NCBI GenBank assembly: GCA_903813345.2
Contig: CAIIXF020000009.1
Span: 13,342,347 to 13,406,346, forward strand
Origin: Owenia fusiformis
Taxonomy: Eukaryota; Annelida; Polychaeta; Sabellida; Oweniidae
Reading direction: 5' to 3'
Length of the DNA: 64,000 nt
Position 1 is the stretch's first letter, and each line of letters begins with the position of its first letter. Positions 30,701-43,200 of the stretch are shown one piece after another. The position numbers and the translations under genes were made by a program. The notes under the pieces were generated by a model. It saw nothing but the letters and a program-made list of their open reading frames with translations, was not told where the DNA came from and did not search any database.

Positions 30701-33700
30701 AGAAGTTCTAATTTGACTTTACAAGTTCTCAGAAATTCAAATCTGACTAAAGTTTGAACTCATAATATTGTGAGCAACTAGGTGGTGACATTTTGTCATG
30801 TTAATGCCTTGTTACAGTATAGTGTGTTGCTTTCATGCTTGTTCACATTAATCCGTAATTGCCAATTCCACCTTTGACATGAACATGTTTAGATTTGATT
30901 TTCCATAATTGCAGATGATGGGAGGAGCAGCTGCTGGGTCTGGCACAGGAGGTAGTGGATCTTCCTCCTCTGCCTTCACATCCTGGTTGCATAGCAACTT
31001 TGTCTCCAAGGATGATGTTGATAAGAGGCTGGCTGCCCTTGCTGCTATGGTGACTGAACGAGTGATAGAGAGACAGAATGCAGAGAAAGCAGGTGGCGCT
31101 GTTTATGTGTCCACGCATAATAATAATACTAGTCTAACTCAAAATGTAAGTGACTCTGGGATATTATCTATTATGTAAATTGTTGATGGAATTTTATGAA
31201 TATTAAATACTAATTATCTCAATTGAACTCTTAGTGACAGGATATTTTCTTTGGGAAATTGCTGTTCATTAGTTAAAAGTCTAATATTTCCTCATTTTCT
31301 AATCCTAAATTAAATGAATTAAAAGCAAAACTAACTTGCCCCTTCAGTAGACTTTGAGACAAACTTTCTATAGATAATTAACCTATAGGTGTATAGATAT
31401 TAACCTATAGGTCTAGGTTGAAAAACATTGAAATAACTGGAGTTTCATTTTTGTTTTGATTCAGGATGTGAAACTAATTATCGCAGAAGCTCTTGCCATA
31501 TATGGTGCTGATAGAACAGGAATGGTGGACTATGCATTGGAATCTGCAGGTAAGTGGCATGTGGCATTCCACTGATAAATTAAGATTTATAGGTTTAAGT
31601 CCTTCTGAAGTGGAACACTGTCATATAAACAGGTTATCACAGAAACTTCATAAGCAGGCAAGGATATGCACATGTTTAAAAAGTTCCTTTCATTCACTTG
31701 AGCCATTTGATATTTTGTGATATCATAATAATCTATAAAATGTTGAGATTTATAATCTATTACATAATGAACTTTGTAAGACATGTGATGCATAATTTGG
31801 CTGGGATTTTTATATTTATGTCAATCAATACATTTTGAGAATTAACAATATTTTAATGGGCAAACTCATACAATGTATTTATACCAAGTATTAAGTCCTG
31901 AAATGTATGTGTTATGCTGCATAAACATGATAAAGAGAATTAAAAATCACTTTTTATTTAGGTGGGAGTATATTGAGCACCAGGTGTTCTGAGACATACC
32001 AGAGGCGCACAGCACAGATCAGTATGTTTGGCATCCCCCTGTGGTATAATAGCAACTCCCCAAGGACAGTCATTCAAGTGAGCCAATTTAAATAAAAGAC
32101 TGAATTATGAATACCTTGGAGTTACAGTATGGAACCTATATTTGTCAACACTCTCTAAAGTAAATTATCAGTTCCATTTTCCTTGATATCTCATAATATC
32201 TGTTTCTTTAATTGTAAACACCATGAAATTTCTTAAAAATCGGGGTCATTTGTATACTAAACTAATTTCATTTTGAAGTAGTAAAAAGCCAATTTACATT
32301 TAAAAAATGTTAAATCGTTGAATTCTATTGATTAAGGTGGTTAAACACCTGGATGCCTAAAAATAACTGAACAATAAATGTCATTTGTGTGTTTTATTTA
32401 TAGATTTATTTCAATTTCAGCCTGATGTACATCCTGGACAATGCTGGGCTTTTAAAGGTGATAAAGGTTATCTCGTGATCCAGCTGTCGGGTGTTATAAA
32501 GCCTTCGTCATTTTCTCTTGAGCATATCCCCAAGTCTCTGTCTCCCAATGGACATATTGATAGTGCCCCACAGAACTTTACAGTCTGGGTAAGTTAAAGT
32601 GTACCAATGCAGGAGTTTCATAAAACAGCAGGCAAAGGGTGATTTTCTTTTCTCCAGAAGAATTTCGCAATATTTCCATGTTGAAATTATATTCTAATGA
32701 AGTTACTGAAATTGTAATCTTATATCAGTACAGAGGCTAGTCAGTGATTTTGATAGAATTTATGATAACCAGCAAGTTGTTGGAAAATCAACTGACAAAA
32801 TTTGTAAAAACAATCTGCAATTTGTCTTTTTCTCTCATTGCCTGCTGGTTGTGATATTATATTCATATCCAGGGGACAGTCTAGTATCGCAAAGCAATTA
32901 TATTTTGTCCTGGATCTAAAGGAAGCTCAGTTAGTCTCACAATGTACATATTTAACTTTCAACATTGTCAATTGTAGCACGTCTTCCATGATTTTCTTTC
33001 AGAAAAGAAATAAAGTAGCCTAATTTTGATTATTGTAAATGCTTGAATGATATTAATAAAGTAAGAAAACACGTAGAACCAGGGTTAACTTGTTTAAAAT
33101 ACAAATATTTAAATATTTCATGTCATGACAAAATCAAGTGGCTTTTATTCTGCTTTGTATTTAGTGTAAATAGTACTTAACTATATTACATATCGACACT
33201 ATGACTGAGGTATTTGAATATGTGAACCATATCTTTGCAGGGTCTGAAGCATGAGAAAGACATTGATGGCTTGTTACTAGGCAACTATACATATGATGAT
33301 AATGGTCCATCTTTACAGAACTTCCCAGTTGAGGTAAGTCACTTTGGAGATGACTTAATCTCAATATAATCAGTAATACCATTAGGAAAATGTAAAGTGG
33401 TGCACCTCAACTAGGCTTCATAGATTTTTAGAGTTAAAGTGTGCGCCTGACCCGGCTACGTATAGCACAGAGTTTATACTGGCGGATTAGACTAGTTCAT
33501 TTTTTATATGTGTGTGAAAGCTTTCTCTTATTTGCGTTTTTTCGTTTAGTACGGTTTTGTTATAATTGCCGAGGTCATATAACCGGGATGAAACAATGAT
33601 TATCGTTGACTGCCCACACACAAAACATACGTTGAGTGAACAGTGTTATTACAAACAACAGGCTCTAGAATACAAAGCCCAGTAGTGTGATAATAAGCTG

Positions 33701-37241: not shown

Positions 37242-40200
37242 TCATTCTTTGGCATCAGATATTCCTCCTTGGGTGATTGCAAATGTTGCTTCATTCTCAG
37301 GAAGATCAGGGCTGAAATATTCAGAATTATTACGTATCTATCAAGTTTGCCATTGGTACGATTGGTCAAAATTGAGTTGTGTGTCACGAAAGATTTGGCG
37401 ATATTCACTACTCTTCACGCTAAAATCATGGCAGATGCGAAAAGATTTAAATGAAACTGACACCAGTTGTACACATTAGCACAAAATTCAACTATTAACA
37501 TTCTTATCAAAGTTTTTGCTGATTGGATGGTGGAGACTGGGAGCAATATCAACTTACAAATTGTGAAAAAATGTGAACGGACTAAAAATTAAAAAGATTG
37601 GTGAAGTGAGAAATAAAGATGGGTATCATAACAGAGCAGCAAAATATCGAATATAAGCCAAGGAATATACAAACACCGACATAATACTTTTTCATTCTTC
37701 TCAAGGTGAATATCTGTGGCACAGTATGCTAGTGGAATATCATCTTGTGAAAGATGCACAGGTATTCACCTCAATAGAATGAAATATTCGTGTAATATTT
37801 AACTGTTTAATAGGCCTAAATAACTTGACATTATTTTCATTTGTGAGACATTCATCAATATATATGCAAACACTTTAACAAAAAAAATCATATTGACTTT
37901 AGAACTTTTCAGTTGACTTTCTGTGACTAGATTCAGTAGACATGATTTAATTTCAGATGAAATCAAACTGAAATGATCACATCCATTTCCCTAACAAATC
38001 CAAGTTTTTCATACATTAATTTTCATGTCATACCTGTCGTAAATCTTGGCTATCCTAAGTTCCCCCCTGCCCTTCCTGAGACTGAGTCTTGTAGTAGAAG
38101 CATGGGCCAAGATGTGACCTCCTATAGGCTTCTTAGGGTCTGCTTGAAAACTGAAGATAAAAAGTTTTATTACATTTATGTGACAAAGTAGAAGCCTCCC
38201 TACTCAGATAACTTTAAATAAATATGCCAAGTTTTAGAACTAGTAGTCGAAAATAATACTTTGATGACAAAAGGCCATTTTTCAAAATGAGGCAAAAATA
38301 AAAGCTGAGATCAATGATATAAATTGCTGATATGAGCATAAGTTTAAATGAATGGCAATTATCTTTTGTCAGAAAATTGTTGGTGAACAGACAAGTGGTG
38401 CATGTACCTGTTATCATTGCTGCTTCCAAAGAAAGCAATATTTCAAGCCTTGATATTTTCAGGAAAGAAGTTTTGTATCCTGTAAGTGGTGAATTTCAGG
38501 GTGTTATAAAAATAGAGTATTTTAGGGACAGTCCCATTAGTCACAATTATTACTCATGAACAAATGACAGTTGCTCTAAGTAGGAAAGTTTCTTGAAACT
38601 TATAAAAATAGACCAAAAATACATGTTCCTTATATATTTTCCAATTCATCATTGAAATTCTCAATTTCAATGTGCTGCCAATTTTACTGAAAGGGGATTT
38701 TCAAAGGCCTACAAACATTTCATAATTTTGAGGAATTGTGTTGATATTTTAAAAGCATATCCTTGAGATGAATTATAGTTTCCTGGAATAACTTTCTTTA
38801 CTGAAAATTTTAGAACAAGCATTGCATAATTTCATAAAATTTAAACTCTTGCAATTGCTATATTTCCAGATATATGTGCGAGGGTGTGCAGCACTATAAC
38901 GAGTATCAACATTGATTTATGTTGTACTTGAAATAACAGAAGCAGTCTCACTTTAGTGCATGAACTTTACACACGCTGCCTTGCAGTCTATCAAGGTCAG
39001 ACTTAGTCTTCTAGGTGATACTGAACAGTGGTAAGTAGATAACAATTCTGTAATAATACATAAGTCTCTTGAAACTAGTACGATAGGAGTCATTATACGA
39101 GTACAAGAATATTTAGTAGATGTTTGTAAGGAAAACTCTGGCCTGGGAATCAATAGGGAGGGTTGTCTAAAATAACCAGAGGTGAATCTCAATTGAGGAA
39201 ATGTGACAAAAATCAATGTGAGGAGTGGCAATCAAAGTAGAAATGAGGTAGAAATTAGCAGGGAGGGTGTAATGGATGATGGTGGTTATGAGTTCAACAT
39301 GGTCATGTGGTGAGAATCAACAGACAGTTGATACTGTCCTAAACAATCTTTTTAATGTCAACTTGTTTTCTGATTCAAGAAAATGGCTGAAAAAGAGCTT
39401 GTGCTGACCACACTTTCATCCATTCTTCACGTGAGGCCAGAAGCCATAGATACGAGTAAAGGTTTACCAGAGATAGGCCTTAATTCACTCCATGTAGCGC
39501 AATTCATTATAGCAATGAAGAAAAATCACTACGTTATATCACTTGGAGACATTATCACAGAAAGGCTGACTATTAATGACATTGTGTCCCTTTTGGAAAG
39601 GAATGCTATGAAAGATAACCCATACCCTAAAGGGAATGTTACATCTGAAACAGAAAACACATTCAAGCAATTTTCAAGAATTTTTGCAGAATCTAATAAT
39701 TTCATTGTAGTCTCATTGAATGATTGTCCAGATAGGGATCATGGCAAGCAGTTGACCTTAACTGCCTTCACAGAAACCCATCCATGGATAAGTCCATTAT
39801 ATAACCATGATGAAATTACAAAGCTATTAAACAATTGCTGGACTAGTGGTATACTAGAGAAAAATATCTCTGTAGCAGCAGTTGACAAAACCACACAGAA
39901 AATGGTTGCATGTTGCATCAATGCAAATTTTGCTACATTTCAACAGGATCTTGGTTTAACAGAAGAACAAAGTTTCTCTGATGGTTTTCTTTTGCTTCAA
40001 GATTTAATAGAGATGAAAGGAAAACTGGAACCGGCAACATTAGGACGGTATGGAGGGAATTGGATGTATCAATATTCATTTGCAGTTGATCCTAATCTTA
40101 GTGTTGGGGAGAAGCTGGAAGTCTCTAAGGTTCTGTTGGAGGGGATACCTGTATTAGCCAAAGAGAAGGGATTTGTTGGGGTAGCAGCCAAAAATGCCAA

Positions 40201-43200
40201 CCCTATCACTTGTGTAGGTATCAAATAAAAAAGTAAATTGGGATTTTAAAATGTTTTAGGAAAGAAATGTTAGAGGAAATCATAATTGAATGAGATATAC
40301 CATATTTGAGATATATATATGGTATATAAAAGTTTCAATTAAGAACCCAATATGTTTGATCAAGACCTAATCATGTTTTAAGAAGTTAATGAAAGATTCA
40401 AGGTTTAGTATTTTAGGCAAATAAAACTGAAAAAAACTTGTTAATATTAATGCCTGATTGTGGCAAAATTAACCAGAGAAACGGGTTCTCAAAGGATTCC
40501 CGGAGTGAATAATAAAACTAGACCATCTAATCAAAAATTGAACATTTTCTGTTTTCTTTCAGTTACTAGATGAGGAAGACCCAAATGTTGAATGTGTTGA
40601 TTCTATTCAAGTGAACCAATACACACGTCCAGATGGAACACAACCTTTTAAACATCTACCAGACATTGAGCGCGTCACAAGTACAGTATACAAATTCTAA
40701 TGTGTCACTACCAGTAACACAGTAGAAGTATAGACTTTGACTGAGCAACTAGAACTGTATATTATGAACAACTAAATTTTTTTCAACATGTGACAGACTA
40801 TATACAAGGTGTCAAAAGTGCAATATATAAACTATGTTCGAATGTTTTAAACAACTTTGTTTTGCATCAGAACTGTTTTTACACAATTCTAACTTTAGCC
40901 ATTGCATAAAGCAATTGCATAGTCCCTAGAAATCAACACATTAAGCCAGGAATAGTCTTTGAATGTGCTGCAATATAATATAAACTTAAATTGTAATATA
41001 TTATAAAATATTTTGCAGTTTATTTCAATGGAGTCATTTCTTATTTACCAAGGAGGATACTTCTAGCCTCTGAGTGGCTCAATTTGAAATAAAGAGACAT
41101 TTGCTATCCCCTACAAGACTGAAGACTACACAACTCATGAAATTTTTATTGTTTTTTATTTTTGTTTGGTAAACTCTTCAAATGTCTATTTGTACAAATA
41201 CAAAAGCATTAATTTTAATTTGTTTATTTAAAAACATGTATATGTACAAAAGTACACATACCAATCCAGTCAGGTAACATGCAATTATTAAACAATAAAT
41301 CTATACATGAAATAATGAAATAAAACATTGTAATAATACACAGTATACATCCAAACATTTATCATACAAAATTACAAAAATTATGCACAGTAAAGGATGG
41401 GATCAACTAAACATAATGTACTTCCTCTGGTGACTACAAAGTAAAATGAAGATCTATTTACCTGATCTCACTGAAAATCTCTCAAAATGGAAAAATGAAA
41501 TAAAATGGCTTGAATTTTACCATTTTGTGTTAAATTGAATTAATCTAATGACTAATGAATAACAATCATTAGTGCCACTTTTATATCTCTTTGTGAAATA
41601 TAAGAGAGTGTTCATATCATGATCTGGTATCCTGTCTTAAAAGATTCTATACTTCAAAGTCCATCACATTTTAGCACTATACTTTCCAAGTGGAAATCGA
41701 ATGCCAAATCTTAATTTTTTCTAAACAGTTTCTACGAAAAGCTACATTACTACTACAATAACAAAGACAACAAATGATTGGTTAGTTGTCACAAAATTTG
41801 TCTAAGATAAGGTCTTAAGATACTGCAGCATTAAAATATGAATGGTTTATTTAGACAGCTTCTTATCAGATTTAAATGTCTTCCTGGTTGTCTAATAACA
41901 ATAAATGATAACAAGTGGTGTTGTTTATCCTCGGCTAGATAGCAGAGTTTAAGTTCACATTACAAACAAATCTATTAGTTAAATATTTTAGAAAATAGTT
42001 AGTCTTTATGCTAATACAAGCATGCTAAGCTATTAGTGATTGGTCACAATTATAACTAACTACATTATTGTAAACTATGATATAAGGAAATAAAAGAGAT
42101 TGTAATAAAGCATGAGATGAAAGTGCATTTCATGACACATTTTGTTCATTTGTTTCTTACAATGATTCAAAGTATGAATTTCTTAAATATCTGAGGCAAA
42201 ATTATATATTGTATATAATAGGCTTTTATCCTTGGATATATAAGGGTATTGATTGTCCCGTGCCAGCACTATAATCCTGAAAACGTCATGATCTTTTGCC
42301 TGTACGATTACACCATGGGAGATTAATTCACGCCTCCTACACTTAAATTACCAACCTCAATACATTCCTGATTAGCCTATTTCAGGTTTCTTTTTTTGTA
42401 GTTGAATCACCAATCATACAGGTTTATTGGTAGAATGAGGAAATTTGCCCTCTTCATCGAGATCTTTTGCATCTGTTTTCTAGATGGTGGAAGGGGAACC
42501 CCCTGCTGCATCAGACCCGGATGTACCAATAGATGAAGGAATTTTGACAATCGAAATAAGTTAAATAACACGCAAAAATCGAAAATTCACTCATTCTACC
42601 GATTAACCAATACAATTAGAATCCAACTGCATAAAAAGAATTCTAATACTCAGTAATTTATTTAACACTCTCTAGTCTGAGAAATAGTTGTAATCAATAT
42701 TTAGAATGTTAAGCCAATGAGAAATTGGTCATTCCCCCAAATAAATCCTTGGAAGAATGAGCAAAATATGCCGGATATATTTGCACCAAATTAACCATGT
42801 TTACAGTAATGGGATAGACCATGCTTACAGGAATGGGATAGAGCATGCATATTTGGAAGAATTAGCAAAATATGCCAGATATATTTGCACCAAATTAACC
42901 ATGTTTACAGTAATGGGATAGACCATGCTTACAGTAATGGGATAGAGCATGCATCCTTGGAAGAATTAGCAAAATATGCGAGATATATTTGCACCAAATT
43001 AACCATGTTTACAGTAATGGGATAGAACATGCTTACAGTAATGGAATAGAGCATGCATCCTTGGAAGAATTAGCAAAATATGCCAGATATATTTGCACCT
43101 TAACCATGTTTACAGTAATGGGATCAGGGCCGTCAGATGGGGGGTGCGATGGGTGCGACCGCACCCCCCTTTGTCAACCCCCAAAATAAATTTGAAAAAA

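Follow-up and report, generated by a model that had tools for sequence, protein, structure and literature searches.

The 64 kb stretch of the Owenia fusiformis genome analysed here (G000:C9:13342347–13406346, hereafter the window) carries on its forward strand a two-exon gene, 39383–40213 and 40563–40700, whose 322-residue product joins a phosphopantetheine-binding carrier (T) domain to a GNAT condensation domain resembling that of insect Ebony, with no adenylation (A) domain. In the reading that we consider best, this is one of three stand-alone T-GNAT genes that arose when the gene of an Ebony-type A-T-GNAT synthetase split, and would be served by an A protein in trans, most likely the product of an A-only gene on contig C1; judging from the sequence evidence, we give this reading about an even chance of being right. 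The genome searches covered this one genome, of 498 Mb.

The T-GNAT gene of the window

The elements of the gene, in window coordinates, are as follows.
39363–39379, forward strand: probable splice acceptor of a 5′ untranslated region intron (TTGTTTTCTGATTCAAG), recognized by eye; it encloses the in-frame TGA at 39371–39373.
39383–40213, forward strand: exon 1, residues 1–277; the ATG stands in the strong context AAAATGG, and the starts of the paralogues align to the same carrier position.
39398–39592, forward strand: carrier domain, residues 6–70 (Pfam PF00550, 22.2 bits; cut-off 20.8).
39485–39487, forward strand: codon of Ser35, the predicted phosphopantetheine attachment site (GLNSL), invariant in the paralogues and opening the second predicted helix.
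39725–40213, forward strand: exon 1 part of the Ebony-type GNAT condensation domain, residues 115–277, matching PDB entry 6dym.
40214–40562, forward strand: intron, GT-AG, phase 0.
40563–40700, forward strand: exon 2, supplying the GNAT domain's final 45 residues together with the stop codon; the tail of the C3 paralogue is 51% identical over 39 residues.

At the level of sequence, the 322-residue carrier-GNAT protein is confirmed as a gene model. Its stop-free frame of 284 codons is the second longest within the window, compared with a maximum of 181 codons in 100 simulated 64 kb windows (first-order Markov, matched to the neighbour-base composition of the real window). The position of the phase 0 intron is common to one intron each of the paralogues on C3 and C2, and six out of seven fused Ebony frames of the same genome, which encode a homologous carrier and GNAT domain, also diverge at this late splice point, as seen by eye.

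An earlier, sequence-only reading had described a phosphopantetheine carrier motif joined to a GNAT domain in one protein, likened it to the T-C half of Ebony, and proposed profile searches for both domains. Both were matched, and the description was borne out on either side of the protein: the carrier by PF00550, which matches all three T-GNAT paralogues, and the condensation domain by the C-terminal domain of Drosophila Ebony (6dym), matched by the window protein alone (E 2.4e-8, residues 132–315) and by the three-paralogue profile (E 3.3e-20, positions 115–313). The same profile weakly matches nonribosomal peptide synthetase (NRPS) and acyl carriers in its first 70–90 positions (best E 2.2e-4); MtrB-labelled chains are also among its matches (positions 220–281, best E 0.0015).

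Residues S35, G32, and N34 are invariant across the alignment of the three paralogues. The genome search with the PP-binding family (E up to 0.001) yielded 19 matches, including the paralogues on C2 (E 1.3e-10) and C3 (E 2.9e-10); the window carrier is absent from these matches and is thus the most diverged of the three. The remaining PP-binding loci fetched from the genome are, by eye, NRPS-, polyketide synthase-, or fatty acid synthase-like. Single-sequence folding of exon 1 predicts carrier helices at residues 2–15, 35–47, 54–59, and 64–74, with block confidence of 79–82 at residues 1–30 and 49–71 at residues 31–70; confidence for the GNAT part is under 50, making that part of the model unusable. 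The pattern RxxGxG/A, which we take to be the coenzyme A (CoA) pyrophosphate loop motif of acetyl-CoA-dependent AANAT, has no match either in the GNAT halves of the three T-GNATs (for C2, in the exons before the last) or in those of five fused Ebony proteins.

Related genes and a separate adenylation domain

Two protein searches of the genome (13 and 17 matches, both at E up to 10) gave an identical set of genes, namely, at least three T-GNAT-only genes (the window gene on C9, C3:6321853, and C2:23556066, the last in three exons) and at least seven fused A-T-GNAT Ebony-like genes, these counts being lower bounds, as such searches may miss matches. Two further matches with E about 2 in the 17-match search were set aside as noise. 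The frames of all three T-GNATs are intact, as are their splice sites and the serine, at 28–47% identity; relative to the fused proteins, the T-GNATs show an extended linker, and their GNAT half contains an insertion. Two of the fused Ebony-like genes are in tandem on C1 (G000:C1:8430940–8433311 and 8447958–8450327, about 94.6% identical over 2.6 kb), and one of these copies has its open frame broken between the A and carrier-GNAT parts, which may be an assembly error or a sign of a pseudogene.

The absence of an adenylation domain, also claimed from the sequence alone, was borne out for the window and for the upstream stretches of both paralogues. Eight Ebony-type A queries applied at E up to 0.05 to the window and the paralogue flanks found no A domain in the whole 64 kb, with about 39 kb lying upstream of the window gene, nor in the roughly 20 kb preceding each of C3 and C2. 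Seven out of the same eight queries detected a remote acyl-CoA-synthetase-like frame elsewhere (24–29% identity, E 3e-19 to 4e-27).

The sequence-only reading had further suggested looking through the genome for stand-alone adenylation proteins, and one of Ebony type was found. The search used an Ebony A domain as the query (37 out of 37 candidates scored, 33 matches at E up to 1), in place of the Pfam A-domain family, for which 14 out of 186 candidates were scored. It recovered the seven fused genes and one additional Ebony-type A domain, at C1:27083916 (E 2.9e-78); NRPS genes on C10 came next, none of them stronger than E 1.5e-30. The A-only gene has its own start, intron, and stop (exon 1, 27077768–27077946; exon 2, 27083915–27085454), and its 572-residue product finishes where the A domain does. 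Over the stretch from 5.8 kb upstream of exon 1 to 12.5 kb past the stop, neither T nor GNAT domains were matched. By eye, a possible donor site overlaps the stop codon and might, with low probability, give rise to a longer product. NRPS A domains of the PDB match the protein (best E 7.5e-89), and with the core motif YTSGSTGSPKG and a catalytic Lys at 517 it looks active. Reverse transcriptase-like open frames, noted by eye, lie downstream of the gene (L020, 4218–5998, reverse strand).

The genome also contains a gene for an AASDHPPT-type phosphopantetheinyl transferase (C2:15606638–15607098, two AASDHPPT_N matches, best E 7.8e-20); the ACPS family has no match in the genome at E up to 0.001.

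Trees, substrate pocket and competing explanations

Trees were constructed separately for the two halves. In the A-domain tree (10 rows), rooted with two adjacent NRPS-like genes as the outgroup (G000:C10:9446501–9452500 and 9457501–9462500), the A-only gene branches beside the fused C1 pair with support 99/97, and does so without the longest row as well; the approximately unbiased test rejects alternatives in which it joins the C11 pair or joins C7a and C7c (p-AU 0.003 each). The two outgroup genes (L021, L022) have the canonical Asp at pocket position 235 and carriers of their own. The 10-row carrier-GNAT tree unites the three T-GNATs (100/99) in a group that stands beside the same fused C1 pair once read-through tails are trimmed (92/95), and likewise in a 7-row tree without TG_C9, C7b, and C7c (95/94). 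This grouping was tested after the A-domain tree and the match scores had pointed to the C1 pair. A 9-row GNAT-only tree, which included a Drosophila fragment but neither C1a nor C7c, also recovers the three T-GNATs together (82/86). That both the A-only gene and the T-GNATs are placed beside the same fused pair agrees with the prediction for gene fission, and taken together the trees of the two halves moderately favour fission, with long branches involved, the row of the window gene being the longest of the three T-GNATs.

Several observations weigh against this reading. The approximately unbiased test does not reject an A-only gene branching outside the seven Ebony genes as a whole (p-AU 0.247) or, in the full set, a grouping of the T-GNATs with the C11 pair (p-AU 0.09; 0.03 in the reduced set). 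The carrier-GNAT tree did not settle the C1 placement before the tails were trimmed, the GNAT-only tree of 9 rows does not settle it either, and the T-GNAT trees had no outgroup. The A-only gene lies on a contig other than those of all three T-GNATs, and the whole of the evidence comes from a single genome.

The main difficulty for the A-only protein as a loader of beta-alanine is its substrate pocket. We name pocket positions after GrsA and compare them with VDWVISLADK, taken here as the code for beta-alanine (it was not found in the literature searched). All seven fused A domains have V-D at positions 235/236, D at 331, and the closing K, and match six or seven out of ten letters of this code (seven in C11a and C7c), whereas the A-only pocket, IPTSNGSNDK, matches two out of ten and has I-P in place of V-D at 235/236. 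Since it is devoid of the beta-alanine-like residues kept in the seven fused genes, the A-only protein probably has a different substrate, consistent with an altered product or with an unrelated function.

These pockets are what lends weight to an alternative in which a fused Ebony protein uses its A domain to load the T-GNATs in trans with beta-alanine for new amine acceptors, leaving the A-only gene to some other pathway: seven fused Ebony-like genes are present, and all of them have a beta-alanine-like pocket. We nevertheless think it somewhat unlikely, as fused A domains would normally serve their own carrier, and the genome offers a separate A-only gene of this family, placed beside the very pair of fused genes that the T-GNATs adjoin.

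Less likely, in our judgement, is that the carrier is a relic, with the GNAT half working alone on acyl-CoA, or with the protein regulating the fused Ebony enzymes or acting as their decoy. The window carrier indeed scores barely above the Pfam cut-off, was missed by the genome search with the family, and belongs to the longest T-GNAT row, but all three proteins share Ser35, G32, and N34, the C2 and C3 carriers are recognized with the low E-values given above, and the CoA-loop motif is missing.

An A-domain exon could also lie beyond the searched stretches or be joined by trans-splicing, making the gene an ordinary Ebony with a long intron. The sequence-only reading relied here in part on an in-frame stop preceding the ATG. 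The stop is present, but its value as evidence is weak: the ATG region reads ...CTGATTCAAG followed directly by AAAATGG, and the TGA at 39371–39373 sits within the probable acceptor of a 5′ intron, and hence by itself is no proof that this ATG is the start. As probable acceptors are seen 3, 6, or 30 bases 5′ of the ATG in the three T-GNAT genes, with the frame open between, an upstream coding exon is formally possible. Still, we hold this explanation to be very improbable, for several reasons. A gene on the same strand, marked by a SUN-domain (Sad1/UNC-like) exon at 32367–32594 (forward strand), lies upstream of the T-GNAT gene; of the nine open frames scanned there, the other eight matched no Pfam family at E up to 0.1. 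The searches described above, over about 39 kb for the window gene and about 20 kb for each paralogue, revealed no upstream A domain. All three proteins, diverged as they are, open with M-A-x-K-E at the same carrier position and in strong start contexts. By eye, the A-only gene and two or more of the fused Ebony genes likewise have 5′ introns ending near the ATG. Finally, the sole further Ebony-type A domain listed by the genome search, which can miss matches, belongs to the A-only gene with its own stop. That the T-GNATs are pseudogenes decaying from broken Ebony duplicates, as the broken frame of one tandem C1 copy might hint, is hardly credible for three intact frames at such divergence, with splice sites and serine preserved.

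A putative two-component system

According to the available text of PMC6070697, fused Ebony adenylates beta-alanine and transfers it to the phosphopantetheine arm that the carrier serine bears, where an amine attacks it. Of these three stages, the T-GNATs retain the domains for the second and third. If the T-GNAT carrier is used without an A domain of its own, activation must come in trans, from the A-only or a fused Ebony protein, and so we infer trans charging. In the fission reading, an AASDHPPT-type transferase would arm Ser35; the A protein, most likely that of the A-only gene, would activate an amino acid with ATP and load the arm; and the attached GNAT domain would then allow an amine to attack the thioester, releasing an aminoacyl-amine. 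A single A protein could supply three T-GNAT partners differing in the choice of amine or in tissue. The full combinatorial version, in which, following the fission of Ebony, three T-GNATs are charged by a single A protein of altered substrate and each produce a different aminoacyl-amine signal, is a tentative proposal that we consider less probable than not. As for the split, two-component system suggested from the window sequence, its anatomy has been found, in the form of three T-GNAT-only genes and one A-only gene, and the tree positions speak for it moderately.

With Drosophila Ebony (N-beta-alanyldopamine/carcinine synthetase) the window protein shares the carrier and the GNAT-type condensation domain, the alignment extending to the domain end and including a common tail motif, but the T-GNAT polypeptide has no A domain. 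The seven fused genes of the same genome likewise differ in having the A domain, with its beta-alanine-like pocket, in the same gene. An A domain separate from its carrier, with loading in trans, is the arrangement of the bacterial stand-alone A proteins DltA and CytC1, whose carriers are DltC and CytC2, respectively; those systems, however, are bacterial, and their partner carriers are not known to be fused to a GNAT condensation domain.

The NRPS of flatworms (Schistosoma and planarian beta-alanyl-tryptamine synthetases) are called Ebony-like in the text available of PMC11214079 and cluster with Ebony according to that of PMC10531068; both sources, in the same parts, treat them as single enzymes, unlike the split arrangement considered here. 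Ebony-clade A domains are listed for flatworms, annelids, priapulids, hemichordates, nemerteans, cnidarians, amphioxus, and a rotifer (PMC10531068, same part). Among the matches listed in the open-licence literature, titles and abstract openings contain no description of stand-alone carrier-GNAT proteins.

Known products of these enzymes are transmitters and signalling conjugates, including carcinine and beta-alanyl-dopamine for insect Ebony (PMC6070697, available text), and beta-alanyl-tryptamine, made by the flatworm enzymes and serving in planarians and schistosomes as a signal for reproduction (PMC11214079, available text). In the same Owenia genome, a cluster of matches to the annelid-type erythrocruorin linker domain was observed at G000:C6:27028280–27049838 (six matches at E up to 10, three of them at E under 0.001), in keeping with an annelid; a search for COX1 had no match.

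Four small recombinant proteins would allow a direct test of the split hypothesis. If Ebony is indeed split in Owenia fusiformis, one activating enzyme could serve several acceptors, and the T-GNAT genes would point to new aminoacyl-amine molecules in this annelid.

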